Shown here piece by piece: positions 6,572 through 55,846 of a stretch of DNA of 64,000 nt. Numbering within the stretch: position 1 is the first letter of the stretch; every line of letters starts with the position of its first letter. A program made the position numbers and the translations under genes. Below the pieces are notes generated by a model. The model made no database searches. It was not told the DNA's origin and was given only the letters and a program-made list of their open reading frames with translations. The stretch comes from an uncultured Pelagibacteraceae bacterium (GTDB taxonomy: Bacteria; Pseudomonadota; Alphaproteobacteria; Pelagibacterales; Pelagibacteraceae): NCBI GenBank assembly GCA_902619745.1, contig CACNFL010000001.1, forward strand, positions 1 to 64,000, given 5' to 3'.

Positions 6572-7278
6572 TGGCATATTTTGAGGGAATAGAAATGACA
6601 GGTGGATATGGTAATGGTCCTGATATTATTAGTTCGTGTTCAGTAAATGTTAATAAAGGTGAAATAGTCTCTATTCTAGGCCCTAATGGTGCTGGCAAAT
6701 CAACTGCTATGAAAGCAATGTTGGGCTTGCTCAATTTAAAATCTGGATCAGTAAAGATCGATGGCAAAGATATTTCAAAATTATCTCCTCAAGATAGAGT
6801 TAAACAAGGTATTTCTTTTGTCCCACAGACCAAAAATGTTTTTGCAGGAATGACTGTTGAAGAAAACTTAGAAATGGGTGCATTTCTTATTGAGAATGAA
6901 ATCAAAAATATAATTGAGGAAATTTACGAATTGTTTCCAATTTTAAGAGAGAAAAGAAATCAGATGGTTGGTGAGCTTTCTGGAGGTCAAAGACAGCAAG
7001 TAGCTCTAGGTCGAGCTTTAATGATTAAGCCCACAGTTTTAATGTTAGACGAGCCAACTGCAGGCGTATCACCAATTGTGATGGACGAATTATTTGATCA
7101 TATCGTCAAAGTTAAAAGAACAAATGTTGCTATCTTAATGGTAGAGCAAAATGCAAAACAAGCCTTAAGTATTTCAGATAGAGGCTACGTATTGGTTACT
7201 GGAGAAAATCGTTATTCAGGAACTGGAAAAGAATTATTAGACGATCCAAGAGTAAGAAGCTCTTTTTTGGGAGGGTAA
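6571..7278 (+). CDS. Second LivF-type ABC ATP-binding protein
   Basis: GPNGAGKST, LSGGQRQQVALGRAL, VLMLDEPTAGVSP; LivF-like. Confidence 0.9.
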   Translation: MAYFEGIEMTGGYGNGPDIISSCSVNVNKGEIVSILGPNGAGKSTAMKAMLGLLNLKSGSVKIDGKDISKLSPQDRVKQGISFVPQTKNVFAGMTVEENLEMGAFLIENEIKNIIEEIYELFPILREKRNQMVGELSGGQRQQVALGRALMIKPTVLMLDEPTAGVSPIVMDELFDHIVKVKRTNVAILMVEQNAKQALSISDRGYVLVTGENRYSGTGKELLDDPRVRSSFLGG

Positions 7279-7279
7279 T

Positions 7280-9734: not shown

Positions 9735-10903
9735 TGAATAAAAATCTTTCGTTACTTATTTTAAGTCAGATTTTTGCTTTTACAGCTGCCCCAGTCACCG
9801 TTTTTTTAAGCGGTATAATTGGTTCAAAATTTAGTCCAATAAAATCATTAGCAACTCTTCCAATGGCTTTGTCAGTTGTTGGAATTGCGTTATTTGCTTT
9901 TTTTGCTGCAAAACTAATGAGTATAATTGGACGTAAATTAGGATTTATTTATGCATCAATAGGAACAAGTCTAGCATCTCTTTTAACTGCATACTCTATA
10001 ATAATAGAAAGCTTTATCTTATATAATTTGGGATGCTTTTTAATTGGTGGAGGAATAGCTTTCAGTCATCAATATCGTTTTGCAGCAGTCGAGGTTGTAG
10101 ATAAGGATTACGCACCAAAAGCAATTTCTATCATTTTGTTAGCAGGAATAGGTTCGGCGTTTATTGGTCCAAACATTGCAAACATTTCGAAAGGATTTAT
10201 TTCAGATCATATGTATGCAGGTTCTTATCTTGCACTTGCCATTTTATCTATCTTATCAACAATATTTTTAATTTTTTATCAGGAACCAAAAACGATATCT
10301 AGTAATCAATATAAAACTGGAAGAAGTTTTTTTAAGCTTATCTCTCAACCTAGATTTCTACAGGCGCTCGTAGCTTCAGCTTTTGCCTATGCTGTAATGA
10401 CTTTTTTAATGACAGCAACTCCTATAAGCATGCATCTGATGGAGAAAATAAGTTTATCCAAGACTGGATTTGTTATTCAGCTTCATATAGCAGCTATGTT
10501 TTTACCTTCACTAGTTACAGGAAATTTAATTAAAAGGTTTGGTCATAGTAAAATAATGCATGTGGGAGTTTTATTGTTTTTAGTCACAATTATTACCAGT
10601 TTATTTGAACAGAATTATATTAACTATATGGTTGCACTTATTTTTCTGGGGCTAGGGTGGAATTTTTTATTCATTTCAGGAACAAGCTTACTTGTTTTGT
10701 GTTACAGAGAAGAGGAAAAATTTAGAGCTCAAGGGTATAATGATTTAATTGTTTATTCTATACAAGCATTAGCCAGTTTGTCTGCTGGAGTATTTCTTAG
10801 CTTAACTAGCTGGAAAACTATGAATTTAATATGTCTGATTTTTCTAATTATCATAGCTCTATCTACCATAAGAGCTGATTTAAAAAAAAACCCCAGTAAT
10901 TAA
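9734..10903 (+). CDS. MFS transporter
   Basis: ~12 TM, 389 aa, MFS-like 'AKLMSIIGRKLGFIYASIGTSLASLL'. Confidence 0.75.
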   Translation: MNKNLSLLILSQIFAFTAAPVTVFLSGIIGSKFSPIKSLATLPMALSVVGIALFAFFAAKLMSIIGRKLGFIYASIGTSLASLLTAYSIIIESFILYNLGCFLIGGGIAFSHQYRFAAVEVVDKDYAPKAISIILLAGIGSAFIGPNIANISKGFISDHMYAGSYLALAILSILSTIFLIFYQEPKTISSNQYKTGRSFFKLISQPRFLQALVASAFAYAVMTFLMTATPISMHLMEKISLSKTGFVIQLHIAAMFLPSLVTGNLIKRFGHSKIMHVGVLLFLVTIITSLFEQNYINYMVALIFLGLGWNFLFISGTSLLVLCYREEEKFRAQGYNDLIVYSIQALASLSAGVFLSLTSWKTMNLICLIFLIIIALSTIRADLKKNPSN

Positions 10904-10919
10904 ATTACTGGGGTTTTTT
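10891..10919. terminator. Intrinsic, probably bidirectional terminator
   Basis: CCCCAGTAAT-TAA-ATTACTGGGG (10-bp perfect stem, 3-nt loop) followed by TTTTTT, preceded by AAAAAAAAA; lies between convergent genes. Confidence 0.9.
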
Positions 10920-10935
10920 GAATTAAGATAAAAAA

Positions 10936-12117
10936 TTATCTTTGTTTTTTAGTTTTGAATTTTCCGCCTTTAACTTCTTGTTCTAAGAAAGAACCTTCAG
11001 CTTCACCAACATCAGTAAAAGTTACTCCAGTAGCACCTTCGTAATTTATCTTTTTACCTTTTGCTAATAAATCTAAACCTTTCTTAAGTTCACCTGGATA
11101 AATCTTTTTTCCAGGAGCGTTAGCAACATCCATTACATTTTTTGCAATAGATGCTCTGTCAGCAGAGTTACCTGCTTGCATTGCAAGAACGATTAAAGCA
11201 GCTGCATCGTAAGACTCAGCTGTGTATGGACCAGATGCTTCTACACCACCAGCTTTTGCAACTTCAGCAAATATACCAGCACCTTTGCCAGTAGAACCTG
11301 GCATTGATCCAAATGATTTACTTAAGTCTTTACCAAAAGCGTCAACTAAAGATTGACCGATCATACCATCTGATAAAACAAATTTATCAAATGCACCAGA
11401 GTCTAAAGAAGCTTGAATGATTCCTTTTCCTCCTTGGTCAAGATAACCAATAACAGCTACAGCATCACCACCAGCAGAAGCAAGAGTTGCTACTTCAGAT
11501 GAGTAATCTGCTTTTCCATCTTCGTGAGCAGTTACAGTTGTAACTTTAATACCATGAGCTTCAACTGCCGCTTTATATACATCAGCTAAACCTTTACCAT
11601 AGTCATTGTTAGTATAAGTGATTGCAACACTTTTTACTTTTCTATCTTTAGTTATGTCAGCTAAAATTTGACCACCTCTAGCATCTGATGGAGCAGTTCT
11701 AAAGAAGTACCCTTTATCATCTAGAGTTGTTAATCCTGGAGAAGTTGCAGAAGGTGAAATCATAACTACACCATTTGGTACAGCAACGTTTGTTGCAATT
11801 GCACCAGTTACACCTGAACAGTCTGCTCCCATGATTGCAGCTACACCACCTGATATTAAACCTTCAGCTGCTGCTGTCGCTGCTGCTGAGTCAACACAAG
11901 TTGAGTCTGCTCTCATAACTTCAATTTTTTTTCCACCTAATAGCGAACCTGAGTCTGATGCTTCTTTAAAAGCAAGCTCTGCAGATGCAGCCATAGCTGG
12001 AGTTAGAGATTCAATAGGACCTGTGAATCCTAAAATAATCCCCATTTTAATATCTGCCATTACTTTTGTTCCAAAAATAGAAACAAACATAAAAGCAGCG
12101 ATAAATAGTTTTCTCAT
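10936..12117 (-). CDS. LivJ/LivK-type branched-chain amino acid ABC transporter substrate-binding protein
   Basis: Signal peptide MRKLFIAAFMFVSIFGTKVMA then 'DIKMGIILGFTGPIESLTPAMAASAELAFKEA'; start moved from 12141 to the internal ATG at 12117 next to AGAGGAAG. Confidence 0.88.
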   Translation of the reverse strand: MRKLFIAAFMFVSIFGTKVMADIKMGIILGFTGPIESLTPAMAASAELAFKEASDSGSLLGGKKIEVMRADSTCVDSAAATAAAEGLISGGVAAIMGADCSGVTGAIATNVAVPNGVVMISPSATSPGLTTLDDKGYFFRTAPSDARGGQILADITKDRKVKSVAITYTNNDYGKGLADVYKAAVEAHGIKVTTVTAHEDGKADYSSEVATLASAGGDAVAVIGYLDQGGKGIIQASLDSGAFDKFVLSDGMIGQSLVDAFGKDLSKSFGSMPGSTGKGAGIFAEVAKAGGVEASGPYTAESYDAAALIVLAMQAGNSADRASIAKNVMDVANAPGKKIYPGELKKGLDLLAKGKKINYEGATGVTFTDVGEAEGSFLEQEVKGGKFKTKKQR

Positions 12118-12225
12118 TATCTTCCTCTTTATTGTTAACAATTTATAAAAGCTAATTTAAGTATGAATACAATTAATATTCAATGACAAAATTATCCTAT
12201 TTTAAAGAGGTTAATTGCTAGTGGA

Positions 12226-13707
12226 TTATCTTATTGAGAAAGGGTCAAGAGAAGGTTCGTCAGAGGTATAGAACCATGTTGTTTTTACCCTTGTGTAGTC
12301 TTTAATTGAATCAATTCCTGCTTCTTTTCCATATCCACTATCCTTAATACCCCCAAATGGAGCTGAAGGTGAAATTAATCTATAAGTATTTACAAATGTT
12401 ATTCCTGCTCGGATAGCATTAGATACCCTCATGCCTCTTGCGAGATCACTAGTATAAACACCTGAAGACAGACCATATTGATTGTCGTTCATTAATTCTA
12501 CTACCTCTTTTTCAGTATCAAATTTCATCACTGATAATACAGGACCGAAAAGTTCATTTTCAGCAGCTGGTAAATTATGATTATCACACTCAATAATTGT
12601 TGGAGGAAAATAATAACCTTCATTTGAAAAAGGATGTCTTTTACCACCACATTTAATTTTTCCACCTTGTTCAACAGTTAATTTAATATTTTTTTCTATT
12701 ACCTCTAATTGTTTGAAGTTACTTAGTGGACCCATTTCAGTATCAGAGTCCATTGGGGCACCTATTTTAATTTTTTCTGCTCTTGATGCTAATTTATCTA
12801 AAAATTCGTTATAAATTCCTTTTTGCAAGTACAACCTTGAACCTGCTATACAACTTTGACCACTTGCTCCAAATATTCCAGCAGTTATTCCATTAATTGC
12901 ATTTTCTTGTTTGGCATCATCAAAAACAGCTACAGGACTTTTTCCACCCAACTCCAAACTTACCTCAGATAAATTTTCTGCAGAGTTTCTGATTATATGT
13001 CTTGCAGTTTCAGGACCTCCTGTAAAAGCTACTTTCTCAACTAAGTTGTGAGTAGTTAAAGCTTTACCACACTGATCTCCAAAACCAGAAACTACATTAA
13101 CCACTCCTTTTGGTATTCCAGTTTCTTCAACTAACTTTGCAAACTCAAACATAGTTGCTGGCGCTAATTCAGAACATTTAATTACTACTGTATTACCCAT
13201 AGCTAAAGCAGGAGCAACTTTTGTTGCAGTTAAAAACATTTGAGAATTCCAAGGAATAATAGCTGCAATAACACCTATTGGAATTCTTGTTGTGATCGCT
13301 TGAATATTTGGTTTATCTATTGGAAGAACTGTTCCTTCAACTTTGTCAGCTAAACCTGCATAGTAATCATAATATTCTGCAATGTATTTTGCTTGTTGAT
13401 AAGTTTCTCTGTACAGTTTTCCTGTATCAATTGTTTCAATCTTTCCTAATAATTCAGAATTTTCTCTAAGTTTATTTCCGATTGCTCTTAAATATTTTGC
13501 TCTATCTCTTGCAATCATCTTTGGCCATTCACCTTCGAAAGCTTTTTGAGCAGCTTTCACAGCTCTATCAACATCATTTGCGCTAGCTTCAGGAACTGTA
13601 GCCCATGGCTTATTATTTTCTGGATTTAAAGTTTCAAAAGTTTTTTTTGTATCAGAGTCTACCCACTGACCATCTATAAACATTTGATATTTTTTTAATT
13701 CAGGCAT
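12226..13707 (-). CDS. NAD(P)-dependent aldehyde dehydrogenase
   Basis: 'VSLELGGKSPVAVFDD' and 'FGASGQSCIAGSRL' catalytic motifs. Confidence 0.9.
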   Translation of the reverse strand: MPELKKYQMFIDGQWVDSDTKKTFETLNPENNKPWATVPEASANDVDRAVKAAQKAFEGEWPKMIARDRAKYLRAIGNKLRENSELLGKIETIDTGKLYRETYQQAKYIAEYYDYYAGLADKVEGTVLPIDKPNIQAITTRIPIGVIAAIIPWNSQMFLTATKVAPALAMGNTVVIKCSELAPATMFEFAKLVEETGIPKGVVNVVSGFGDQCGKALTTHNLVEKVAFTGGPETARHIIRNSAENLSEVSLELGGKSPVAVFDDAKQENAINGITAGIFGASGQSCIAGSRLYLQKGIYNEFLDKLASRAEKIKIGAPMDSDTEMGPLSNFKQLEVIEKNIKLTVEQGGKIKCGGKRHPFSNEGYYFPPTIIECDNHNLPAAENELFGPVLSVMKFDTEKEVVELMNDNQYGLSSGVYTSDLARGMRVSNAIRAGITFVNTYRLISPSAPFGGIKDSGYGKEAGIDSIKDYTRVKTTWFYTSDEPSLDPFSIR

Positions 13708-14488
13708 TATTTATATGTTTCATTATTGCATTATTTACTTCGTCTGCATATTCAATAGTGCATAGATGTTTTCCATTTTTGATTTCAACATATGTAGAAT
13801 TTTGTATATCTTTGTTTAAATTTTTCGACATATCAGGTGTAGATCCTGGATCATCTGATCCTGTTATTATTAAAGTATTTGTTTTTATATTTTTTATATT
13901 TTCAGGATTATCCTCATAGTTTGCAAATACTTCATAAGCTTTTATAAAATTTTCTTGATCAATTCCTTTCTTGTTAAGAATTTTCATAAACTCATCATAT
14001 AACTCAGGATTTTGTTCAAGGTATTTATCTGAAAACCATCTCTTCATTGCCATTTGAGATATTGGCATATTTTTTTTTGCCAAATTCACTCTATCAATTA
14101 CATTTTGTCTTTCTTCTGTAGTCCTTTGGTATGTAGTGGATATTAGAGTTAAAGAATTCAAATAATTTTCATATTTTGAAGCAAATTCAATTGCAATCAA
14201 AGATCCGATTGAAAAGCCAATTAAATTTAATTTCTCTATCTTTAGGTTATTTACTAAATTTGATAATTGATCAGTAAAATTTTCCATTGTTAAATTTGGG
14301 TTTTTAAAAGGTGTTTTTCCATGTCCTAACAGATCGTAGGTTATAAATGAATTATTCTTAAAAAATTCAATTTGTGGTTTCCACATTTGTTGATTTAAAC
14401 CAACACCATGAATAAAAATTATTGGTAAAGAATTTTTATTATTAAAATAATAATGATTTTGATCGTTATCAAAATTGTAAGACATCAA
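13700..14488 (-). CDS. Alpha/beta hydrolase
   Basis: 'PIIFIHGVGLNQQMW', nucleophile elbow GFSIGS, C-terminal 'GKHLCTIEYAD'. Confidence 0.85.
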   Translation of the reverse strand: MMSYNFDNDQNHYYFNNKNSLPIIFIHGVGLNQQMWKPQIEFFKNNSFITYDLLGHGKTPFKNPNLTMENFTDQLSNLVNNLKIEKLNLIGFSIGSLIAIEFASKYENYLNSLTLISTTYQRTTEERQNVIDRVNLAKKNMPISQMAMKRWFSDKYLEQNPELYDEFMKILNKKGIDQENFIKAYEVFANYEDNPENIKNIKTNTLIITGSDDPGSTPDMSKNLNKDIQNSTYVEIKNGKHLCTIEYADEVNNAIMKHINNA

Positions 14489-15073
14489 TTAGTTATCGAT
14501 GCCCATCTCTTTCATATCCTGATATCTATCACCCGTTCTCGCATGAGCTCGTCCAGTTGGAGCGCCTCCAATTGCAACAACTATTTCATCTTCATTAGGT
14601 GCATCATGAATTGTAAATTCATGCGTTAGATAAAAAGGTCTTAATCCAGCATCAGTTTTATGCATCATTGGAATTGAAATTTTTGCTCCCGCAGGACCTC
14701 TAGTGTTAGTAAAACTTAAATAAGAAGTTCCACCAACGGCATCTCTAAATTTATTTCCAAATCTTAAAGTATGAATAAATGCAGATGCATGTTCTATTTC
14801 ACCATTCAATCCAACCATCGCAGCTTTCCCATAAGCTAAAATTTTTTCACCTGATCCAATTTCTTTTGTTAACTCTGGCACCAAAAGATCTCCTAATTGA
14901 GGTGCAAGATCTAATATTTCTGGTTTTAAATCTTCTACAAAACCTTTTCCGGCCCAAGGATTTTCTATAACAGCTGCAACCGAAACTAACAGAACAGGCT
15001 CTTTTGCTTTTTTTCCACCTTCAATAAAAGTTTTATCTACAAATTTTGCAAATTTTCTAAGTTTTAAATCCAT
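14489..15073 (-). CDS. DUF1185 / AA_synth family protein
   Basis: 194 aa; 'NPWAGKGFVEDLKPEILDLAPQLGDLL', 'GEIEHASAFIHTLRFG' and 'GGAPTGRAHARTGDRYQDMKEMG' typical of the family. Confidence 0.8.
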   Translation of the reverse strand: MDLKLRKFAKFVDKTFIEGGKKAKEPVLLVSVAAVIENPWAGKGFVEDLKPEILDLAPQLGDLLVPELTKEIGSGEKILAYGKAAMVGLNGEIEHASAFIHTLRFGNKFRDAVGGTSYLSFTNTRGPAGAKISIPMMHKTDAGLRPFYLTHEFTIHDAPNEDEIVVAIGGAPTGRAHARTGDRYQDMKEMGIDN

Positions 15074-15076
15074 TTA

Positions 15077-16243
15077 CTAGCTAGCTCTTTGAATGTTTGT
15101 ATCTATTGGTTTTATATTTGGAATAACTTCTTCAGTAAATAATTTGATGCTTCTCATGCAGTCTTCGTGTTTAATTCCTGGAAAGTTAGACCAGACTTGC
15201 AAATTTTGAAGATTTAATTCTTGCTGAAGTTCTTTTATTTTTTCTATTACAAACTCAGGTGTTCCAAATAAAAGATTTCTTTTATGAAGAAATTCATAAT
15301 TTAATAAATCTAGTTTATTTTTTGTCTCTGGTAATTTTTCATCTGGGTCCATATGATTTCCTAAACCTCTCCAATGACAAACCCATCTCATATAATTTAC
15401 GATATGTTCTCCAGCCATTTTTTCAGCCTCTTCCATAGTTTCTGCGACAAACATATCTCTAACCAAACTAATACCTTCACCCAGTGGTACATCTCTATTT
15501 TCAGCTTTAGATTTTGCCTCTTTATAAATTTCAAATCTTTTTTTCAAAGCTTTTACAGTTGGTATCCACATAATTGTATTAAGTCCATTTTCTGCCGCCC
15601 ACTGAATTGATCTTTCTCCATCAACCACTTGAGAAATTGGTGGAAAGGGTTTTTGATAAGGTTTTGGTAATACAGATATTTGTTTTAATTCATTTGTTTT
15701 TAAATCTACAACATTTTCTCTAGGGGGACTCATATCGTGCTGCCAAATAAAATTTGGTGAGGGATAAGTATAGAATTCACCTTGGTGAGAAAAGAAGTTC
15801 TCAGACCATGCTTTTTTCATTATGTCTAATGTTTCAGAAAATAATCTAAAATTTTTTGCTTGGTCTTTTAAGTCAGCCTCTTTATTCATGTTAATAGCTT
15901 CTCTTCCATAAACTCCTCTTCCAATACCAACTTCAACTCTTCCTTTTGACATTTGGTCAAGGGTTGCAATATCTTCCGCAAGTCTTATGGGATTATGAAA
16001 TGTAATTACGTTGCAAGCCTGTCCTAAACGAATATTTTTAGTTCTTGCAGCAGCATCAGTGCACATCATTAGTGGATTGGTACAAGACTCCATTCCTTCA
16101 TGATTAAAATGATGTTCGGTATACCATATAGAATTCCAATTATTTTGATCACAATATTCAGTGATCTCTCTAGCTTCATCTAAAAGTTGGGTATAAGGTT
16201 TTTTATCCCAATTAGTAGTGTTACAAAAATATCCAAAGTTCAT
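15077..16243 (-). CDS. Luciferase-like (LLM class) flavin-dependent monooxygenase
   Basis: 'MNFGYFCNTTNWDKKPYTQLLDEAREITEYCDQNNWNSIWYTEHHF' and 'GRVEVGIGRG'; start moved to 16243 because a perfect AAAGGAGG lies just upstream. Confidence 0.88.
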   Translation of the reverse strand: MNFGYFCNTTNWDKKPYTQLLDEAREITEYCDQNNWNSIWYTEHHFNHEGMESCTNPLMMCTDAAARTKNIRLGQACNVITFHNPIRLAEDIATLDQMSKGRVEVGIGRGVYGREAINMNKEADLKDQAKNFRLFSETLDIMKKAWSENFFSHQGEFYTYPSPNFIWQHDMSPPRENVVDLKTNELKQISVLPKPYQKPFPPISQVVDGERSIQWAAENGLNTIMWIPTVKALKKRFEIYKEAKSKAENRDVPLGEGISLVRDMFVAETMEEAEKMAGEHIVNYMRWVCHWRGLGNHMDPDEKLPETKNKLDLLNYEFLHKRNLLFGTPEFVIEKIKELQQELNLQNLQVWSNFPGIKHEDCMRSIKLFTEEVIPNIKPIDTNIQRAS

Positions 16244-16348
16244 AAAGCCTCCTTTAAAAATTAATTTAAAGACGACCGATCCCACTTTCGTAAATTTTTG
16301 AATTTAACGACGAGTTATGTATCGCTTTATAATTAAACCTTATTATTA

Positions 16349-25107: not shown

Positions 25108-25854
25108 ATGAATTCAACAAAAATAGATCCTAAATATATTACCAAATCAAATCCAAGAATTGGACTTATTGCGCTTGCAAGCGATTTTATGATTGAAAGA
25201 GATTTTATAAACGTAATCAAAGACAGAGAAGTTGATTTTTTTGTAAATCGTATTGAATGCTACAACCCGCTAACAAAAGAAAATTTGATCAAAATGTCAA
25301 ACAAAGTAACTGAGGTAACAAAGGATATATTACCTGATCAGAATATCGATTGCGTTGTTTATGGCTGTACCTCTGGAACAATAGCTGCAGGTTATGAATC
25401 TATTGAGAAAAAAGTAAAAGCTGCAAAACCTATGGCAGAGGTGACAACTCCAAGTACCGCTGCAATTAAAGCTTTAAAGAAGTTAAATATAAGTAAGATA
25501 AGTCTATTTACACCTTATAGCAAAAAACTTAACGATGAAGTTTTGGAATATTTTAAAAACGAAGGGTTTGAAGTTACTTCAAATTCTTACTTTGATATAG
25601 AAGCTGATTACGATATCGGAAAAGTTGATCAGAATTATTTATTTAATGTTCTATCTGAAATAGATTTAAATGGGGCAGAGGCACTCTTTGTTTCTTGTAC
25701 TGCTTTACCAGTGTTGCCAATTATTGATAAATTAGAGAAAAAATTAAATACTACAGTTTTATCTAGCAATCAGGCTTTAATTTGGGATACGCTTGTTAAA
25801 ATAAACAAAAATAATTCTGTCGAAGGATTTGGTAAATTATTTAAAGAAAATTAA
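25108..25854 (+). CDS. Maleate isomerase/Asp-Glu racemase superfamily protein, EutA-like (ectoine utilisation)
   Basis: 'CVVYGCTSGTIAAG' and 'ALFVSCTALPVLPIIDKLE' paired catalytic Cys motifs; overlaps a DoeA-like gene. Confidence 0.72.
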   Translation: MNSTKIDPKYITKSNPRIGLIALASDFMIERDFINVIKDREVDFFVNRIECYNPLTKENLIKMSNKVTEVTKDILPDQNIDCVVYGCTSGTIAAGYESIEKKVKAAKPMAEVTTPSTAAIKALKKLNISKISLFTPYSKKLNDEVLEYFKNEGFEVTSNSYFDIEADYDIGKVDQNYLFNVLSEIDLNGAEALFVSCTALPVLPIIDKLEKKLNTTVLSSNQALIWDTLVKINKNNSVEGFGKLFKEN

Positions 25855-27023
25855 TGTTGTTCACAAAAGAAGAATATAAGCAAAGATTAACAAAAGTTAA
25901 AAAAATGATGCAAGAAAAAGGCATCGATCTTTTAATCTCACATGACACTAACAACATGAATTACCTAACAGGTTATGATGCTTGGTCATTTTATTATGCT
26001 CAATGCGCAATTGTTCATATAGATGCAGACGAGCCTCTATGTTTTGTTAGGGCTCAAGATGCAGGTGGCGCATATATTAAAACTTATTTAAAGGATGAGA
26101 ATATTTTAGTTTATGACGAAAATTATATTCATACTTGGCCAAAACATCCTTATGATAATTTGGTAGAGATTATAAAAGAAAGAAAATGGGATAATTCATG
26201 CATTGGATTAGAAATGGATGCGCATTACTTCACTGCGTTTTGTTATGAAAAAATAAAGCAAGGATTACCTAATGCAAAAATCAAAGATAGCGATCGTTTA
26301 GTTAATTGGGCAAGGTTAGTAAAATCAGATGCTGAAATAGGTTTTATGAAATCTGCTGCAAAAATTTCTGAAAAAGGAATGAAAACTGCAATGGAGGTTA
26401 TTAAACCAGGAGTAAGACAGTGCGATGCAGTAGGTGAAATTCAAAAAACTTTATTCTATGGAACAGAAGAATTTGGAGGAGAATATTCTAGTATTGCAAC
26501 ATTACTTCCAACAGGGAAAGGTACTTCAGCTTCGCATTTAACAGCAACACAAGATAAATTTGTGGAGGGTGAGGCTACAATTATTGAATTATCTGGGGTT
26601 TATAAGAGATATCATTCTCCAATGGCAAGAACAGTTCTGCTTGGAAAACCCAATCAATTAAAGATTGATACAATGAACAAAACAATTGAAGCTTTAAATG
26701 CAGGCATAAGTCAAATTAAACCTGGGAATACAGCGGATGATGTTGCACAAGCTTTTTGGAAAATATTAGATAAATACGGAATAGAAAAAAAATCTCGAAC
26801 AGGTTATTCGATTGGAATTGGTTATCCTCCAGATTGGGGCGAACACACTCTTAATATTTATAAGGGAGATATGACAGTTTTAGAACCTAATGTTTGCTTT
26901 CATATGATAGCAGTGATGCAGTTCGGTGATTGGGGTGTTGAAGCATCTGAGGCTATAAGAGTTACAGAGAATGGATCAGAATTGTTCTGTAATTTTCCAA
27001 AAGAGCTTCATATTAAGAGTTAA
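25854..27023 (+). CDS. M24 family hydrolase, ectoine hydrolase DoeA/EutD-like
   Basis: 'DTNNMNYLTGYDAWSFYYAQCAIVHID' and M24-like C-terminal 'GIGIGYPPDWGEHTLNI'; pairing with EutA-like gene. Confidence 0.72.
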   Translation: MLFTKEEYKQRLTKVKKMMQEKGIDLLISHDTNNMNYLTGYDAWSFYYAQCAIVHIDADEPLCFVRAQDAGGAYIKTYLKDENILVYDENYIHTWPKHPYDNLVEIIKERKWDNSCIGLEMDAHYFTAFCYEKIKQGLPNAKIKDSDRLVNWARLVKSDAEIGFMKSAAKISEKGMKTAMEVIKPGVRQCDAVGEIQKTLFYGTEEFGGEYSSIATLLPTGKGTSASHLTATQDKFVEGEATIIELSGVYKRYHSPMARTVLLGKPNQLKIDTMNKTIEALNAGISQIKPGNTADDVAQAFWKILDKYGIEKKSRTGYSIGIGYPPDWGEHTLNIYKGDMTVLEPNVCFHMIAVMQFGDWGVEASEAIRVTENGSELFCNFPKELHIKS

Positions 27024-27068
27024 TTAGCTATTGAAATCTATTTATACAAATGTTTTATATTCACCTTT

Positions 27069-28154
27069 ATGTCTAAAAATCCAGAGTTTGTTAAATTCGA
27101 TAAAGTAGATAAAAGTTATGACGGTAAGGTTCTTGTAGTCAAAGATCTTCAATTAGATATTGCAGAAGGTGAATTCATTACAATGCTTGGTCCATCTGGT
27201 TCAGGTAAAACAACTTGTTTAATGATGTTGGCTGGTTTTGAAACACCAACTCACGGCGAAATATTATTAGATGGAAATATAATTTCGAATATTCCTCCAC
27301 ATAAAAGAGGGATCGGAATGGTTTTCCAAAACTATGCATTGTTTCCACATATGACAGTTTATGAAAATTTAGCTTTTCCATTAAGAGTAAGAAAAGTTGA
27401 AAAAGATGAAATAGATAAAAAAGTTGATAAAGCATTATCGATGGTTTCATTAAGTGGTTTTGAAACTAGAATGCCTGCTCAACTTTCTGGTGGTCAGCAA
27501 CAAAGAGTAGCAGTTGCAAGAGCTTTAGTATTTGATCCAGCAGTAGTATTAATGGATGAACCACTTGGAGCACTAGATAAAAATTTAAGAGAAAGCATGC
27601 AATATGAAATAAAACATATTCATGAAAGTATTGGTGTAACAGTTGTATATGTAACTCATGATCAAAGTGAGGCATTAACTATGTCAAATAGGATTGCAGT
27701 ATTTAATGATGGAAAGGTTCAACAACTTTCAAATCCAGCGGAACTTTATGAGAAGCCAGTAAATTCTTTTGTTGCTGAATTTATTGGGGAAAACAATACT
27801 TTTAATGGAGAGGTGATTGATATTGCTAAAGATAAATGCAAAGTTAAATTAGCAAATTCAGAAATATTAGCTAATCCAATTTCTGTTAAGTCAAAAGGAG
27901 AAAAAACAACAGTCTCATTGAGACCTGAAAGAGCGTTAATAAATCCAACTGATAAAATGGACAACATGTTTACTGGAAAAATTGAGGAAGTAATTTATCA
28001 TGGTGATCATACAAGAGTTAGATTAAATCTTTTAGGAAGTTCTGAGTTTATTCTAAAAGTTCCTAACAGCACATCCAATTTAGAATTAAAAGTTAGCCAA
28101 GATATAAATATTGGTTGGAATAGTGTTGATGCTAGAGCATTAGACCCAAAATAA
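27069..28154 (+). CDS. potA: Spermidine/putrescine-type ABC transporter ATP-binding protein
   Basis: GPSGSGKTT, LSGGQQQRVAVARAL, VVLMDEPLGALDKNLR, C-terminal TOBE region. Confidence 0.88.
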   Translation: MSKNPEFVKFDKVDKSYDGKVLVVKDLQLDIAEGEFITMLGPSGSGKTTCLMMLAGFETPTHGEILLDGNIISNIPPHKRGIGMVFQNYALFPHMTVYENLAFPLRVRKVEKDEIDKKVDKALSMVSLSGFETRMPAQLSGGQQQRVAVARALVFDPAVVLMDEPLGALDKNLRESMQYEIKHIHESIGVTVVYVTHDQSEALTMSNRIAVFNDGKVQQLSNPAELYEKPVNSFVAEFIGENNTFNGEVIDIAKDKCKVKLANSEILANPISVKSKGEKTTVSLRPERALINPTDKMDNMFTGKIEEVIYHGDHTRVRLNLLGSSEFILKVPNSTSNLELKVSQDINIGWNSVDARALDPK

Positions 28155-28243
28155 TCCTATTTAAAATATTCACATCTAATGCACGTAACTAATGACAAAA
28201 TCAGCTGTTGACTTAATCTTCCCTATTTGTTGTACTTTTACTT

Positions 28244-28261
28244 ATATAAATTAATTTATAT
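28244..28261. promoter_or_regulatory. 18-bp perfect AT palindrome upstream of potD
   Basis: ATATAAATTAATTTATAT, starts 39 bp upstream of the ATG at 28283; function unproven. Confidence 0.3.
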
Positions 28262-28282
28262 CAACGTTTAAACGGAGGAATA

Positions 28283-29401
28283 ATGAGAAAAATAAGTAAA
28301 TTATTACTAGCTCTTTCTTTTGTTGTATCTCTTACTTCTTCAGCCTTTGCTGTTACAGTAGCATCATGGGGTGGAGCTTACACAGAGTCTCAAAAGCTTG
28401 GGTATGGTGATCCTACTGCTAAAGCGCTTGGAGTAGAAATCAACTGGGTTGACTATTCTGGTGGTTTATCAGAAATCAAAGCACAAAAAGAAGCGGGTGC
28501 TATAACTTGGGATATCATAGACTTATTTGCATTCGATACTATTAACGGATGTGATGAAGGTTTATTTGTTAAATTTGATTTTGACAAAGACTTCCCAGCT
28601 GCACCAGATGGAACTCCTGCAAGTGAAGACTTCTTCACAGGAATGCCAAGTGAATGTGCTGTAGGTAACATTTTATATTCTTGGAATTATGCTTTTGACA
28701 CAAGAGCATTCGGTGGTAAAGAGCCTAAAACAATTAAGGATTTCTTTAACACTAAAAAATTCCCTGGAAAAAGAGCAATCTATAAAAGTGCTTTAACAAA
28801 CTTAGAAATCGCTTTAGCAGCTGACGGTGTTAAGTTGGGTGATGGCGGAACTAGAGTTTACAGAAAACTTTTAGAAGATGGTGGAATCGACAGAGCGATG
28901 AATAAAATCAAAGCATTATGTACAGATCCAAATGGTGGATGTGTATTCTGGTCTGCAGGTGCTCAACCACCTGAATTATTAGTTGCTGGTGAAGTTGTAA
29001 TGGCAACTGGTTGGAACGGAAGATTCTTTAACGCTGAAGTTGGAGAGAACGCTCCAATTAAACAAGTATGGGATGGTCAAGGTCTTGACTACGAATATTT
29101 CGCACTTGTTAAAGGTGGACCGGATGAAGCAAATGCTAAAAAAGCTTTAGCTATGATGACTAACACTGAAATGTTAGCTGGTAGCGCGAAGTACATTGCA
29201 TATGCTCCATGGAGAAAATCATCTCTTGATGTAATTACTGCTGGTGAGCCTTGGTACAAAGATGGTAAAACTAACATGATGCCACAAATGCCAACTGCTC
29301 CTGCAAACACTAAGAACTATTTCTTAGTAGACCCATTCTTCTGGGCTGATAACAATACTGAGATCAGTGAGAAGTGGGAAGCAATGAAAGCAGGTCTATA
29401 A
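28283..29401 (+). CDS. potD: Spermidine/putrescine-type ABC transporter substrate-binding protein
   Basis: Signal peptide MRKISKLLLALSFVVSLTSSAFA; 'VASWGGAYTESQK'; strong GGAGG Shine-Dalgarno. Confidence 0.85.
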   Translation: MRKISKLLLALSFVVSLTSSAFAVTVASWGGAYTESQKLGYGDPTAKALGVEINWVDYSGGLSEIKAQKEAGAITWDIIDLFAFDTINGCDEGLFVKFDFDKDFPAAPDGTPASEDFFTGMPSECAVGNILYSWNYAFDTRAFGGKEPKTIKDFFNTKKFPGKRAIYKSALTNLEIALAADGVKLGDGGTRVYRKLLEDGGIDRAMNKIKALCTDPNGGCVFWSAGAQPPELLVAGEVVMATGWNGRFFNAEVGENAPIKQVWDGQGLDYEYFALVKGGPDEANAKKALAMMTNTEMLAGSAKYIAYAPWRKSSLDVITAGEPWYKDGKTNMMPQMPTAPANTKNYFLVDPFFWADNNTEISEKWEAMKAGL

Positions 29402-29438
29402 TTTCAGTTTTAAACACTGAATTTATATAATATATTTA

Positions 29439-29469
29439 GGGCGGTTATTTTTAACCGCCCTATTTTTTT
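29439..29469 (+). terminator. Intrinsic terminator/attenuator between potD and permease genes
   Basis: GGGCGGTTA-TTTT-TAACCGCCC, then TATTTTTTT. Confidence 0.9.
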
Positions 29470-30735
29470 ATGAGCTCTGAAACAAAACAAATTTTAACAA
29501 CTGACGGAATACCTTTAGAGGTCAGTTTAAAAAAAGCTGAAAAGAAGAATAAAATAAAGGCATTTCTTCTTGTAGCTCCATTATTATTATTTCTTGTAAT
29601 TACTTATATCTTTCCAATTGGAGATATGTTTATGAGGAGTGTTGATGACAGAATGGTCACCAATATGCTTCCAAAAACATTTAAAGCGATGGAGAAATGG
29701 GAAAATTTAGATGAGTTACCTCCAGAAGAAGTATATCGAGGTTTTTATGAGGATTACAAACTACTTGCTGAAAATCAACAGCATGGAAAATTAGGACAAA
29801 GATTAAATAAAGAAAAAAATGGTTTTAATACGATTACCAAAAAACTTTTTAGACAAATCAAAAGAAAAAAAATTGATGAAAGCGCTAGTTTAAAAGAGCA
29901 AATCAATAAACTTCATAAAAGATGGAGAGATGTAGAGTATTGGCAAGCAATTAAAAGAACTGCACCTCCCTATACAGCTTCAAAATATCTAAAGGGAATG
30001 GACATGTATTTTGCTGCTGATGGTAGCATAGCCCAAGTAGATGAAGATAGAAGAATACACAGAATTCTGTGGCTTAGAACATTAGAAATTGCCTTTTTTG
30101 TTACACTTTTTTGCTTCTTTATGGGATACCCAATAGCTCATTTATTAGCAACACTACCAATGAAATACAGCAACTTATTAATGATTTGTGTGCTGCTTCC
30201 TTTCTGGACATCTTTACTTGTAAGGACAGCTAGTTGGATGATTTTGTTGCAACAGCAAGGAATAGTGAATGACTTCTTTGTGATGATTGGTTTAGTTGCG
30301 GACGATAACAGGCCAGAAATGATGTACAATAAGGTTGGGACATATGTTGCAATGACACAGATCTTATTGCCATTTATGGTTCTTCCACTTTATAGCGTTA
30401 TGAAGACTATCTCACCAAGCTTAATGAGAGCTGGAAAATCATTAGGTGGAACACCTTTTGTTGCGTTTTGGAAAGTTTACTTCCCTTTAACAATACCAGG
30501 TATTGGTGCCGGATGTTTATTAGTTTTCATTTTAGCGATTGGGTACTATATAACCCCAGCTTTAGTTGGAGGTGCCTCAGGAACATTAATAAGTAATCAG
30601 ATTGCGTTTCACATGAAGACCACTCTTGATTGGAGTTTCGCATCAGCTATGGGATTAATGTTGTTGACTGGAGTTTTAGTTATTTATTGGATTTATAATA
30701 AATTAGTTGGAGTTGATAATATTAAATTAGGATAA
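29470..30735 (+). CDS. potB: Pot-type ABC transporter permease 1 (PotB-like, with long insert)
   Basis: TM1 'FLLVAPLLLFLVITYIFPIGDMFMRS'; 'SLGGTPFVAFWKVYFPLTIPGIGAG' EAA-type loop. Confidence 0.85.
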   Translation: MSSETKQILTTDGIPLEVSLKKAEKKNKIKAFLLVAPLLLFLVITYIFPIGDMFMRSVDDRMVTNMLPKTFKAMEKWENLDELPPEEVYRGFYEDYKLLAENQQHGKLGQRLNKEKNGFNTITKKLFRQIKRKKIDESASLKEQINKLHKRWRDVEYWQAIKRTAPPYTASKYLKGMDMYFAADGSIAQVDEDRRIHRILWLRTLEIAFFVTLFCFFMGYPIAHLLATLPMKYSNLLMICVLLPFWTSLLVRTASWMILLQQQGIVNDFFVMIGLVADDNRPEMMYNKVGTYVAMTQILLPFMVLPLYSVMKTISPSLMRAGKSLGGTPFVAFWKVYFPLTIPGIGAGCLLVFILAIGYYITPALVGGASGTLISNQIAFHMKTTLDWSFASAMGLMLLTGVLVIYWIYNKLVGVDNIKLG

Positions 30736-30736
30736 T

Positions 30737-31591
30737 ATGGCATTACCAAGTTATACAGAAACAAGATACAGAATTTGGCACTATATTTATATTGCTATTT
30801 GTACTTTTGTATTTTTCTTTCTAATTGCACCTTTATTTGTAATTTTTCCATTATCATTTAATGCGGAGGAATTTTTGGTTTTCTCTGAAGGGATGAAAAA
30901 TCTTGATCCTGATGCATTCTCATTAAGATGGTATAAAGATATGATTTATGGGACTAAAAATCCTTGGGGATTAGCCGCAAAAAATAGTTTTATAATTGCA
31001 ATATTCGCAACCATTGGTTCAATAATTTTAGGTACTTTGGCTGCTTTAGGTTTGAGTAGCAGGCATATGCCATACAAAGGAATTATAATGGCTACTTTAA
31101 TCTCACCAATGATAGTTCCTTTAATTATTTCTGGGGTTGCAATTTTCTTTTTTATGGCAAAAGCTGGTTTAGCCGCAACACATACAGGAATAGTGTTAGC
31201 ACATATAATTTTAGGTACTCCATTTGTTGTCATTACTGTGACAGCAACACTTTCTGGTTTTGATCACAGTGTGACAAGGGCTGCAGCGAGTTTAGGGAGT
31301 AATCCAGTAAACACATTTATGAAGATCACTCTTCCATTAATATTACCCGGTGTTATTTCGGGTGGATTGTTTGCTTTTGTAACTTCATTTGACGAAGTTG
31401 TAGTAGTGTTGTTTTTAGCAGGTTTAGAAAATACAACTATTCCTGTACAAATGTGGACTGGATTAAGAGAGCAATTAAGTCCAACAATTCTTGCTGTAGC
31501 AACATGTTTAATTCTCTTATCAACCTTAATACTAGTATCAGCTGAATTATTGAGAAGAAGATCTGAGAGATTAAGAGGAATAAATAGATAA
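30737..31591 (+). CDS. potC: Pot-type ABC transporter permease 2 (PotC-like)
   Basis: 'AAASLGSNPVNTFMKITLPLILPGVISG' EAA-type loop, 'SFDEVVVVLFLAG'. Confidence 0.87.
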   Translation: MALPSYTETRYRIWHYIYIAICTFVFFFLIAPLFVIFPLSFNAEEFLVFSEGMKNLDPDAFSLRWYKDMIYGTKNPWGLAAKNSFIIAIFATIGSIILGTLAALGLSSRHMPYKGIIMATLISPMIVPLIISGVAIFFFMAKAGLAATHTGIVLAHIILGTPFVVITVTATLSGFDHSVTRAAASLGSNPVNTFMKITLPLILPGVISGGLFAFVTSFDEVVVVLFLAGLENTTIPVQMWTGLREQLSPTILAVATCLILLSTLILVSAELLRRRSERLRGINR

Positions 31592-48910: not shown

Positions 48911-50236
48911 CTAACAATCTAAAGTATTATCTTTTTCCCACTTTGTAACATCTTTTGTTTTATCAAAACTATCTTTTGATTTGAATTCATTCATCTCTGA
49001 ACTTCTTAACTTTATATAACTTTCAATAACATCTTTGCCAAAAGCATCATTCATATCTTTATTATTTTTTAATAAATTTAATGATTGTGCAAGTTCATCA
49101 GGTAGTTTAGGTAAGTCTGGATATTTAGCGTGGTCTTCATACATATTACAATCCAAAGGTTTACCTGGATCAACTTTATTTTTTAAACCATATAGACCAG
49201 CTGCTAAAACACTTGCTTGCAATAAGTAAGGATTAGCAGAACCATCCATTAATCTTAATTCAAATCTTCCAGGATCAGGGATTCTTATCATGTGTGTTCG
49301 ATTATTACCTGTGTAAGAAATACTACTCGGTGACCATGATGCTCCAGATTTTGTAGGTGGCGCATTTATTCTTCTGTAACTATTGATTGTTGGGTTAAAA
49401 AACGCAGATAAAGATGAAGCATTTTTAATTACTCCACCTAAAAAATTATAGGCCATTTTACTTAAACCAAGTTTATCTTTATTATCTAAGAATTTATTTT
49501 TATTACCCTGCCAAACTGATACGTGAGCATGACAACCATTGCCGGTTAAATTTCCAAATGGCTTAGGCATAAATGTTGCTCTTAATCCGTGCTTTTCAGC
49601 AATTGTTTTTACCATAAACTTAAAAAAGGTATGTCTATCTGCAGTTTTTAGGCAATCTGAATAATCCCAATTCATTTCAAATTGACCGTTAGCATCCTCG
49701 TGATCGTTTTGATAAGGGCCCCATCCCATTTCAATCATACAGTCACAAATTTCCTTAATTAAATCATACCTTCTCATTAATGCAGATTGGTCATAACAAG
49801 GTTTAGACTGAGTATCTCTTAGATCTGCAATTGAGTTTCCGTCAGGTGAAATTAAAAAATATTCACACTCAACGCCCGATTTCATTGTTAAATTTTGTTT
49901 TTTTAATTTTTTTATTTGATTTTTTAACGTCACTCTGGGTGACGCATCTACTGGTTTGCCATTCATCCACAAGTCAGATGCTAACCATCCAACTTCTTTA
50001 TTCCATGGAAGTTGAATTAAACTATCTGGGTCGGGAATTCCAAACATGTCTGAATCAGCAGGTGTCATATCTAACCATGCTGCAAATCCAGCAAAACCAG
50101 CTCCTGCATTTTGCATTTCTTTTATTGCATGAGCAGGTACTAATTTTGATCTTAATACACCAAATAAATCTACAAAACTGATTAAAAAATATTTAATTTT
50201 TTTTTGCTTAGCAATTTGAAATAAATTTTTAGACAC
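48911..50236 (-). CDS. Glutamine synthetase family ligase (GlnT/GmaS-like)
   Basis: 'KKIKYFLISFVDLFGVLRSKLVPAHAIKEMQNAGAGFAGFAAWLDMTPAD', 'GNGCHAHVSVW', 'NRTHMIRIPDPGRFELRLMDGSANPYL'. Confidence 0.85.
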   Translation of the reverse strand: MSKNLFQIAKQKKIKYFLISFVDLFGVLRSKLVPAHAIKEMQNAGAGFAGFAAWLDMTPADSDMFGIPDPDSLIQLPWNKEVGWLASDLWMNGKPVDASPRVTLKNQIKKLKKQNLTMKSGVECEYFLISPDGNSIADLRDTQSKPCYDQSALMRRYDLIKEICDCMIEMGWGPYQNDHEDANGQFEMNWDYSDCLKTADRHTFFKFMVKTIAEKHGLRATFMPKPFGNLTGNGCHAHVSVWQGNKNKFLDNKDKLGLSKMAYNFLGGVIKNASSLSAFFNPTINSYRRINAPPTKSGASWSPSSISYTGNNRTHMIRIPDPGRFELRLMDGSANPYLLQASVLAAGLYGLKNKVDPGKPLDCNMYEDHAKYPDLPKLPDELAQSLNLLKNNKDMNDAFGKDVIESYIKLRSSEMNEFKSKDSFDKTKDVTKWEKDNTLDC

Positions 50237-50253
50237 AACCTAAGTTAACATAA

Positions 50254-50403: not shown

Positions 50404-50422
50404 AAATTTAGAACATAAAAAA

Positions 50423-50446: not shown

Positions 50447-50461
50447 AAATTTTAATTTAAA

Positions 50462-50692: not shown

Positions 50693-50703
50693 ATTTTTCT
50701 CCT

Positions 50704-52647: not shown

Positions 52648-54060
52648 CTATATTTTGTGGTAGTTATCAACACCAACTGTGTAGTTAGTTCCAGCTAATG
52701 GAACTTTTGCTAAAGCTGATGCTTCTGATGTTAAAGCAGCTAAATCTTCAGGTTCTAGAGAATGGATATTTGTTTTTCCACACGCTCTAGCTAACAACTG
52801 AGCTTCTAAAGTCATTGAGTGAAGATAATTGTAAACTCTTAGTGCAGCATCATCAGGATTTAATCTAGCTCTAAGCTTAGGATCTTGTGTTGCAACACCA
52901 ACTGGACATCTTCCAGTGTGGCAGTGATAACATTCACCTGCTTTTACACCCATTTCTTTTTCAAAGTTTGCTTCTGGAATATCTTTATTACAGTTAAGTG
53001 CAATCATAGATCCAGTTCCAATCGCAATTGCATCAGCACCTAAAGCTAAAGCTTTAGCCATGTCAGCACCGTCTCTTACTCCACCTGCATAAATTAATGT
53101 TACTTTTCCAGTTTTACCAACATCATCGATTGCTCTTCTAGCTTCTCGAATTGCAGCAATACCAGGAATACCAGTATTTGCAGCAGCGATATGTGGGCCA
53201 GCTCCAGTAGAGCCTTCCATTCCATCTAAGTAAATAGAGTCAGGATCACATTTTGCAGCCATACGCACATCATCATAAACTTTAGATGCACCTAACTTTA
53301 ATTGAATCGGCACTTTATTTTTTGTTAACTGTCTTAGCTCTTCTACTTTTAAAGCTAAATCATCTGGTCCTAACCAGTCAGGGTGTCTCGCCGGAGATCT
53401 TTGGTCAATACCAGATGGTAATGATCTCATCTCAGCAACTTGGTCAGTAACTTTTTGACCCATTAAATGTCCTCCCATTCCAACTTTTTGACCCTGTCCA
53501 ATAAATACTTCAATACCATCTGCTAATTGTGCATGATGAGGATTAAAACCATATCTCGATTGAATACATTGGTAGTACCATTTTTCAGAATATCTTCTTT
53601 CATCAGGTATCATTCCACCTTCACCAGAACATGTAGCACTACCTGCCATAGTTGCTCCTCTTGCTAAAGCAGTTTTTGCTTCATAAGAAAGGGCACCGAA
53701 ACTCATTCCTGTAATATAAACCGGAATGTCTAACTCAATTGGATTTTCACATCTTGGTCCAATAACAGTTTTCGTTTCACATTTTTCTCTGTAACCTTCG
53801 ATTACAAATCTAGTTAGTGTTCCAGGTAAGAAAACTAAATCATCAAAAGTAGGAATTTTTTTCATCAATGCCATTCCTCTCATTCTGTATCTTCCTAATT
53901 GAGATTTAATATGAATGTCGTCTATTACTTCAGGTGTGAAGATAGCGTTATGACCTAATAAACTTTTATTTCTTTTACCTTCTTCATGTGCATGGACATC
54001 AGCTTTTCCACCAACACCTTTTCCATTTTTTTTAACTTTTTTAGATTTTTTCTTAGGCAT
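52648..54060 (-). CDS. mgsC: FMN-binding glutamate-synthase-like protein (N-methylglutamate synthase subunit C-like)
   Basis: 'PIQLKLGASKVYDDVRMAAKCDPDSIYLDGMEGSTGAGP', Fe-S motif 'CYHCHTGRCPVGVATQDP'. Confidence 0.82.
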   Translation of the reverse strand: MPKKKSKKVKKNGKGVGGKADVHAHEEGKRNKSLLGHNAIFTPEVIDDIHIKSQLGRYRMRGMALMKKIPTFDDLVFLPGTLTRFVIEGYREKCETKTVIGPRCENPIELDIPVYITGMSFGALSYEAKTALARGATMAGSATCSGEGGMIPDERRYSEKWYYQCIQSRYGFNPHHAQLADGIEVFIGQGQKVGMGGHLMGQKVTDQVAEMRSLPSGIDQRSPARHPDWLGPDDLALKVEELRQLTKNKVPIQLKLGASKVYDDVRMAAKCDPDSIYLDGMEGSTGAGPHIAAANTGIPGIAAIREARRAIDDVGKTGKVTLIYAGGVRDGADMAKALALGADAIAIGTGSMIALNCNKDIPEANFEKEMGVKAGECYHCHTGRCPVGVATQDPKLRARLNPDDAALRVYNYLHSMTLEAQLLARACGKTNIHSLEPEDLAALTSEASALAKVPLAGTNYTVGVDNYHKI

Positions 54061-54914
54061 TATATTGCTCCCTTCTTCTCTGTAGGTTCCAAATTGTCAT
54101 AATTCCAAAGTTTCTTACCAGCTACAATTTTTTTCATTTTACTAACGTCAAAATTTTCACCAATCTCAGCTACTTTTAATTTTCTTTTAAGCCAATCTTG
54201 ATCACTTTTAGTTAATTCAGCGTCAACTGCATCACTACCATATGATCCAATTTCTCCACCTACGAAAATTGTCCCATCATACATTGAGTCACCTAAATTT
54301 ATCCCTACGTCTCCAAGAATAATTATTCTTCCTCTTTGCATCATAAATCCAGTAAATGCACCGGCGTCACCACCAATTATTATAGTTCCACCTTTCATAT
54401 CAATTCCAGTTCTGGCACCAACACTGCCTTTACAAATTAAATCTCCACCTCTAATTGCCGCACCAAAACAAGATCCAGCATTTTTTTCGATCACTACTTT
54501 ACCAGCCATTAAATTTTCTGCACATGACCACCCAACTCTTCCATTAATTCTAACTATTGGACCATCACAAGAACCCATTCCAAAGTATCCTAAACTTCCT
54601 TCAAAAATTAAATTTAGTTTATTTAAAATACCAACTCCAAGACTGTGTTTACCTTGAGGGTTTTTTATTACTATTGTTCCATATCCTTGGCTCATTAAAT
54701 TATCGATTTCTTTATTAGCCTCTGGCGCTGTCATATCCTTAACATCAAGATCAGTTCTTTTATTAAAATCTACATCGTATGTGCCAAAGTAGTAAAAGTT
54801 TTCTGCTTCATCAGGATTAAAGAATTTTTGCTGAGTTCTCCCTGTTAAAACCTCAGTGTGCATACCCATTGATTGGGCTTTTGATTTTTTCGATACTGTT
54901 TTTAGATTTGCCAT
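54060..54914 (-). CDS. mgsB: GXGXG-domain protein (N-methylglutamate synthase subunit B-like)
   Basis: Glycine-rich beta-helix repeats 'GSVGARTGIDMKGGTIIIGGDAGAFTGFMMQRGRIIILGDVG'. Confidence 0.82.
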   Translation of the reverse strand: MANLKTVSKKSKAQSMGMHTEVLTGRTQQKFFNPDEAENFYYFGTYDVDFNKRTDLDVKDMTAPEANKEIDNLMSQGYGTIVIKNPQGKHSLGVGILNKLNLIFEGSLGYFGMGSCDGPIVRINGRVGWSCAENLMAGKVVIEKNAGSCFGAAIRGGDLICKGSVGARTGIDMKGGTIIIGGDAGAFTGFMMQRGRIIILGDVGINLGDSMYDGTIFVGGEIGSYGSDAVDAELTKSDQDWLKRKLKVAEIGENFDVSKMKKIVAGKKLWNYDNLEPTEKKGAI

Positions 54915-55846
54915 ACTTTAACCTCCCCATCAAACGGATCATATGTATCAATTTCTTGTGGTAACACAGATCTAATTGCAATTTCTTCAGATCCCATAGC
55001 AACCAAATCATCAGACTCATATAACACCAATGGTTTTGCAGCCATTGTATCTTTTGCCATTCCTAAGGAGTCTTTTGTTGCAACAAAGTAAGTAAATACA
55101 CCATCTAAACCCGTTAAAGATGCTTTCATTCCTTCTTCTAAAGTTGCCCCATCTCTCATTTTTTCAGCAATATAAACAGCAATTAATTCCGAGTCACACT
55201 CAGACATAAATCTCATACCTTTATTTTCCAAAACTCTTCTGTTATTCCAATAGTTTGTTAATTGTCCATTATGAACTACAGATACATCGCTAAATGGGTA
55301 TCCCCAGAAAGGATGGGCAGATTTGATATCTACACCAGACTCTGTTGCCATTCTAGCATGACCTATAGCATGTGTTCCAACAACTTTATCTAAGCTATAT
55401 CTATCACAAACCATTTTAGCGTTTCCAAGATCTTTAATCACTTCTAACGATTTACCCATTGAAAGAATTTCTACACCAGGAATACTTTCTATACGTTGTG
55501 AAAATTCTAACAGATCCTTAACATTATAATCAAGTTCATATCTTAAAGAGTAGGGAAGAGTTCTTTCTTCTTTAACTACTTTAGCTCCCATTTCGGCTAG
55601 AGTTTGATCTACAATTTTTTTTCTTTCATCATAAACAGACACATCTTCCATAATTGATGAGCTTCCTTCTCCAACGTTTTCTCCAACTTTAAAACGCATA
55701 ATAAAGTTTTTACCGTCTGTATCTCCATACAAAGCGTAACCTGTAGAATCTTCTCCTCTATGTTTTAATGCTTGAAGCATACCTTGTAATTCGCTCCCTA
55801 CATTTGAGGATTTTCCTCTATGAATTAAACCTGCTATCCCACACAT
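54902..55846 (-). CDS. mgsA: Class II glutamine amidotransferase (N-methylglutamate synthase subunit A-like)
   Basis: 'MCGIAGLIHRGKSSNVG' Cys2 nucleophile, 'VVHNGQLTNYWNNR'. Confidence 0.85.
   Translation of the reverse strand: MCGIAGLIHRGKSSNVGSELQGMLQALKHRGEDSTGYALYGDTDGKNFIMRFKVGENVGEGSSSIMEDVSVYDERKKIVDQTLAEMGAKVVKEERTLPYSLRYELDYNVKDLLEFSQRIESIPGVEILSMGKSLEVIKDLGNAKMVCDRYSLDKVVGTHAIGHARMATESGVDIKSAHPFWGYPFSDVSVVHNGQLTNYWNNRRVLENKGMRFMSECDSELIAVYIAEKMRDGATLEEGMKASLTGLDGVFTYFVATKDSLGMAKDTMAAKPLVLYESDDLVAMGSEEIAIRSVLPQEIDTYDPFDGEVKVWQI

Follow-up and report, generated by a model that had tools for sequence, protein, structure and literature searches.

In a 64,000-nucleotide stretch of DNA from an uncultured Pelagibacteraceae bacterium (the window), we found a compact catabolic operon that probably directs the oxidative ring opening of an N-methylated pyridine carboxylate (homarine and trigonelline are the likeliest candidates) by a route resembling that of the trigonelline degradation (tgn) genes. 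SAR11 bacteria are the most abundant heterotrophs of the surface ocean. The operon encodes a luciferase-like monooxygenase (LLM), a DUF1185 protein, an alpha/beta hydrolase and an aldehyde dehydrogenase (ALDH).

A conserved four-gene operon

The operon runs on the minus strand from position 16243 to 12226, in the order LLM (15077..16243, 388 amino acids), DUF1185/AA_synth protein (14489..15073, 194 amino acids), hydrolase (13700..14485, 261 amino acids from the ATG) and ALDH (12226..13707, 493 amino acids). Beyond ALDH, on the same strand, lies a gene for a LivJ-type binding protein with a signal peptide (10936..12117). The sequence-only reading that drew attention to this region had described all five genes, and profile searches bore it out: PF00296, PF06684, Abhydrolase_1, Aldedh (538 bits) and Peripla_BP_6, respectively, all scored above cut-off. 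It had also given the internal junctions as 3 bp, 0 bp and an 8-bp overlap. The 3 bp between LLM and DUF1185 and the 8-bp overlap of hydrolase and ALDH are as described; the 0 bp between DUF1185 and hydrolase holds only with a TTG start at 14488, and the junction is 3 bp with the ATG at 14485. Its remark on an unusual, perfect Shine-Dalgarno sequence at the monooxygenase was correct as well, as the strong match AAAGGAGG (16248..16255, minus strand), 5' of LLM, occurs just twice in the window when both strands are counted. A promoter scan returned no more matches than were found in shuffled sequence.

We surveyed the best 80 SAR11 loci, drawn from 395 relatives, and scored conservation wherever more than 3.5 kb of sequence was available downstream of LLM. 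All three partners were intact and on the same strand in 65 of 65 such loci, and the three junctions fell within -17 to +9 bp across SAR11 loci, with a single outlier of 135 bp. This conservation of the LLM-DUF1185-hydrolase-ALDH order is far beyond chance, and the four genes are a real, tightly packed catabolic operon. The closest relatives of the LLM, at 97-100% identity, are from Pelagibacteraceae. Because DUF1185 of the operon type is present in only 87 of 397 Pelagibacteraceae genomes (47 of the 140 high-quality ones), the operon is accessory. The 2OG-Fe(II) oxygenase and EamA genes located upstream (16349-18267) were considered as further members and rejected, since other genes replace them in many loci.

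Features of the predicted proteins

The predicted structure of the LLM (pLDDT 88.4) found its top PDB fold matches in RslO1 and bacterial luciferase, and matched 3,6-diketocamphane monooxygenase as well. This predicted fold suggests that the enzyme, a putative ring-opening oxygenase, is FMN-dependent. The operon contains no PF01613 flavin reductase, and none was found in the genome of the window (77% complete) or among ten further SAR11 genomes; each of these eleven genomes encodes a PF03358 flavoprotein. Thus, if it is FMN-dependent, the LLM must draw its FMNH2 from an unlinked reductase.

The DUF1185 protein scores 218 bits against PF06684 (cut-off, 27 bits) and retains the E-x-E-H and R-x-H-x-R motifs, which correspond to the Glu, His and Arg interface residues described for BB2672. 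In the hydrolase, S92, D212 and H240 are invariant and form an intact triad, and ALDH carries E252 and C286. The rates at which these proteins diverge differ. Within SAR11, LLM and DUF1185 evolve slowly (82-100% identity), and the hydrolase evolves fast (46-98%). A low identity between this hydrolase and the tgn-type enzymes may therefore reflect rate, whereas for the slowly evolving LLM a low identity suggests that the oxygenase was genuinely exchanged.

Gene content around DUF1185 varies in some loci. One SAR11 operon (L170, genome G423) carries between LLM and DUF1185 a gene for a TPP-dependent enzyme of 565 amino acids (L170:11145-12842) that resembles Xsc and acetolactate synthase, and that is 59% identical to an enzyme adjoining DUF1185-hydrolase in a non-SAR11 cluster (L163). 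Four further loci (L145, L149, L158 and L159) contain DUF1185-hydrolase pairs in whose vicinity neither an LLM nor an ALDH was recognised. These pairs suggest that DUF1185 and the hydrolase act as a unit.

Relatives outside SAR11

The best plasmid-borne DUF1185 matches (54-61% identity) reside in clusters that comprise a GntR regulator, DUF1185, hydrolase, flavin reductase, LLM and ALDH; some add NIPSNAP, a Pot-type ABC transporter or a succinate semialdehyde dehydrogenase (SSADH). These clusters occur in rhizobia (Rhizobium, Shinella), Leisingera, Pantoea and Acinetobacter. By gene content, rather than by comparison with the ADP1 reference sequences, they are the gene set of trigonelline degradation. 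As Perchat et al. reportedly described in 2018, this pathway leads from trigonelline through N-methylformamido-methylene hydroxybutyrolactone and a succinate derivative to methylamine, formate, CO2 and succinate semialdehyde. The sequence-only reading had suggested that the module might be undescribed. In kind it is not, since tgn-type clusters have matching DUF1185 and ALDH proteins and the same set of genes. The guess of an N-heterocyclic substrate was well placed.

The four proteins differ in how closely they resemble their plasmid counterparts: in this direct comparison, identity is 54-59% for DUF1185 and about 50% (49-53%) for ALDH, but 22-28% for the hydrolase and about 25%, over the full length, for LLM. 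The trees show a corresponding pattern. In the LLM tree, the 17 TgnA-type cluster LLMs lie on one side of a branch with 100/100 support, and the SAR11 LLMs lie opposite, together with that of a non-SAR11 locus, L120 (G211). The hydrolase tree splits 16/16, with SAR11 in the non-tgn half (100/100). The DUF1185 tree splits likewise, with SAR11 outside the tgn-type half, on a sister branch, except that L163 and L164 are placed in the tgn half. All cluster ALDHs, by contrast, group together (100/100) and are separated from the remaining ALDHs in the tree.

Gene order outside SAR11 had been proposed as a check, and the order of the operon does occur there: L120 encodes a PF01613 flavin reductase, an LLM 55% identical to that of SAR11, a DUF1185 (64%), a hydrolase and an ALDH, in the SAR11 order. 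Another locus, L121 (G226), contains two SAR11-type LLMs, a Pot-type ABC set, ALDH, DUF1185 and hydrolase. Twenty further DUF1185 neighbourhoods mostly contain TgnA-type LLMs, and some have DUF1185 and hydrolase alone.

A proposed pathway and the methylamine genes

Several lines of evidence favor the tgn-like reading: the gene set shared with the DUF1185-hydrolase-flavin reductase-LLM-ALDH clusters, together with the strong similarity of DUF1185 and ALDH; the L120 cluster; and the intact operon, with conserved junctions, in every locus scored. The known functions of tgn proteins point the same way, as TgnA/TgnB is a ring-opening oxygenase (PMC8269262), and TgnF is a DUF1185-type protein that acts with TgnE, stimulating TgnE-dependent oxidation of succinic semialdehyde (PMC7913881). 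Finally, the reading is supported by the methylated-amine genes of the window and by the enrichment of gmaS with the operon, both described below.

By analogy with tgn, the LLM, supplied with FMNH2 by a housekeeping reductase, would cleave the ring to an N-formyl-N-methyl enamine bearing an aldehyde, which the TgnC-like ALDH would oxidize to the carboxylate. The hydrolase, as a TgnD-like N-formyl enamide hydrolase, would then release formate and methylamine, and the remaining product would be succinate semialdehyde if the substrate is a 3-carboxylate and 2-oxoglutarate if it is a 2-carboxylate. The TgnF-like DUF1185 protein, whether accessory or enzyme, may aid the lower part of the pathway. 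The order proposed earlier from the sequence (import, oxygenation, hydrolysis, aldehyde oxidation) thus keeps its oxygenation step, but loses import by LivJ (see below), and the tgn analogy puts hydrolysis last.

The methylamine would be assimilated through the gmaS and mgs-like genes of the same window. A methylated-amine region at 48911-61543 contains gmaS, an Amt family (ammonium transporter) gene, an mgs-like trio, a second gmaS-like gene, DAO and a TMAO demethylase, the last scoring just below cut-off. The gmaS-type glutamine synthetase (48911..50236, minus strand; TIGR03105 over cut-off) is the predicted sink for methylamine, and the trio (Glu_synthase, GXGXG and GATase; 52648..55846, minus strand) is a putative Mgs for N-methylglutamate synthesis. 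The genome also has two SoxD-family genes. Among high-quality genomes, gmaS is present in 40 of 47 with the operon and 48 of 93 without it (Fisher p ~9e-5, phylogeny ignored), an enrichment that may arise if both share variable regions. The gmaS and mgs-like genes and this enrichment are consistent with methylamine release by the operon pathway.

Other observations count against a tgn-like pathway: the distance of the LLM from the TgnA type, in another clade; the position of hydrolase and DUF1185 outside the tgn branch; an operon with neither SSADH nor reductase, in a group where eleven genomes yielded no PF01613; and the TPP enzyme inserted in L170, which the scheme does not explain.

LivJ and the neighboring transporter genes

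The sequence-only reading had made LivJ the fifth member of the module. As a dedicated importer LivJ would be conveniently placed, since it is adjacent and on the same strand in the window and in most loci. The sequence-only reading also noted that the facing liv set (LivMHFG, 5783-9657) contains no binding protein of its own, which is borne out, and that LivJ could serve that set, which the distribution supports: among loci with more than 6.5 kb of sequence beyond ALDH, LivJ and LivM were both present in 47 and both missing in 8, and one further locus had LivJ without LivM within its sequenced stretch. The operon thus does without these neighbors in 8 loci; in one of them (L062), ALDH is followed by genes for ketopantoate hydroxymethyltransferase, GMP synthase and IMP dehydrogenase. 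Conversely, two genomes that lack the operon (G207 and G297) retain EamA-LivJ facing LivMHFG-P5CR intact. In G297 this unit adjoins EutA, the position that the operon occupies in many other strains, which indicates that the operon was inserted beside a separate transporter unit. Nor is LivJ tightly coupled to the operon, because the ALDH-LivJ gap, 108 bp in the window, widens to about 935 bp in loci with an inserted EamA gene. We conclude that LivJ lies outside the operon and is independent of it, and that a five-gene module with its own importer is improbable.

A symmetrical hairpin, CCCCAGTAATTTAATTACTGGGG, with A and T runs on its flanks, lies at 10885-10921, where the LivJ and MFS genes converge. 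From its sequence it is probably a bidirectional terminator, although a scan did not list it.

A possible alternative importer for the substrate is a PotABCD-type ABC system, encoded with EutA-like and DoeA-like genes at 25108..31591 on the plus strand. Of the 54 SAR11 loci with enough upstream sequence, 17 have this block next to the operon in divergent orientation. The block looks like a combination of ectoine-utilization genes and a transporter of the betaine or polyamine type. Its PotD-like binding protein (28283-29401) matches PDB 8jv1 (E 6e-177) and may be the counterpart of SAR11_1336, an ABC system reported to import DMSP and, among further substrates, betaines (PMC13310141).

Candidate substrates

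Both trigonelline and homarine fit the tgn-like reading, as would possibly other N-heterocycles; homarine is slightly ahead because it is abundant, because TgnAB is argued to be unfit for it, because a role of Mgd has been reported, and because the operon has no SSADH. A homarine catabolism pathway was reportedly published in 2026 (Ferrer-Gonzalez et al., Nat Microbiol, doi 10.1038/s41564-026-02313-7), and overlap with the operon is possible. That the operon is the SAR11 form of this pathway, a narrower version of the tgn-like reading, is a tentative proposal. Homarine is abundant in marine particles and was reported to account for as much as 3% of the particulate carbon (PMC8269262), although the concentrations were later corrected downward (PMC10134881). 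Homarine degradation would call for another oxygenase if, as has been argued, TgnAB cannot accommodate it sterically (PMC8269262), and the oxygenase of the operon does differ from TgnA. Mgd reportedly takes part in homarine catabolism, which fits an N-methyl product (PMC13390433). However, no N-methylglutamate-forming reductase is specifically linked to the operon. The P5CR-like gene (5010-5777) was considered as an imine reductase specific to homarine and rejected, as it is single-copy in 10 of 10 SAR11 genomes, with or without the operon. This gene and LivGFHM adjoin a CsiD/GlaH glutarate dioxygenase gene (4066-4977, over the NCBIfam cut-off). Elsewhere in the window, a gamma-butyrobetaine dioxygenase-like protein (20653-21804, below the equivalog cut-off) is encoded beside an aldolase II gene.

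Degradation of trigonelline itself, with TgnA replaced by a non-orthologous LLM, is likewise a narrower version and is somewhat doubtful. It would account for an ALDH that remains in the TgnC-like clade, and trigonelline is found in seawater, where a marine roseobacter is among the bacteria able to grow on it; the compound is, however, far scarcer in the sea than homarine (PMC8269262). The missing SSADH and the distinct clades of LLM, hydrolase and DUF1185 also argue against it. We think it quite unlikely that the operon degrades a cyclic ketone or lactone, with the LLM as a type II Baeyer-Villiger enzyme and the hydrolase as an enol-lactonase. The fold match to 3,6-diketocamphane monooxygenase and a hydrolase profile nearest to 3-oxoadipate enol-lactonase would suit such a route, but neither match is close (22% identity; PcaD 126 bits, cut-off 256), and this reading would not explain why tgn-type clusters contain close relatives of DUF1185 and ALDH.

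Significance and comparison with known systems

The operon differs from tgn in its first enzyme, and probably allows about one-third of SAR11 to use a related plankton metabolite. More speculatively, it may represent a second type of pyridinium-betaine operon, in which the substrate-defining LLM was exchanged and the DUF1185-hydrolase-ALDH block retained; about one-third of Pelagibacteraceae would thereby gain access to homarine or another N-methylpyridine with no dedicated flavin reductase and, in some strains, an additional TPP-dependent enzyme. With DUF1185 in 47 of 140 high-quality Pelagibacteraceae genomes, the operon is a concrete candidate for identifying consumers of N-methylpyridine metabolites. 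It also frames the role of DUF1185, which is kept with the hydrolase, and usually with ALDH, while the oxygenase changes.

Among known systems, the Rut pyrimidine pathway likewise combines an LLM with an alpha/beta hydrolase, but was rejected: the SAR11 hydrolase scores 74 bits against RutD (cut-off, 238), and RutA was not among the matches listed. Homarine catabolism shares with the operon a marine N-methylpyridine carboxylate as (candidate) substrate. The Mgd route deals with the N-methyl group of homarine, and the window contains gmaS and mgs-like genes, the partners of that route. The closest likeness is to tgn of the Acinetobacter baylyi ADP1 type. Like tgn, the operon unites LLM, DUF1185, alpha/beta hydrolase and ALDH; its ALDH is TgnC-type (about 50% identity, shared clade at 100/100) and its DUF1185, with 218 bits to PF06684 and 54-61% identity, is TgnF-type, though on a sister branch. 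Its hydrolase may be TgnD-type: superfamily, position and intact triad would fit, but identity is 22-27% and the branch is a sister one. Unlike tgn, the SAR11 operon has an LLM that is not TgnA-type (about 25% identity, separate clade at 100/100), a hydrolase and a DUF1185 outside the tgn-type branch, a different gene order, and no flavin reductase (TgnB), SSADH or GntR regulator.
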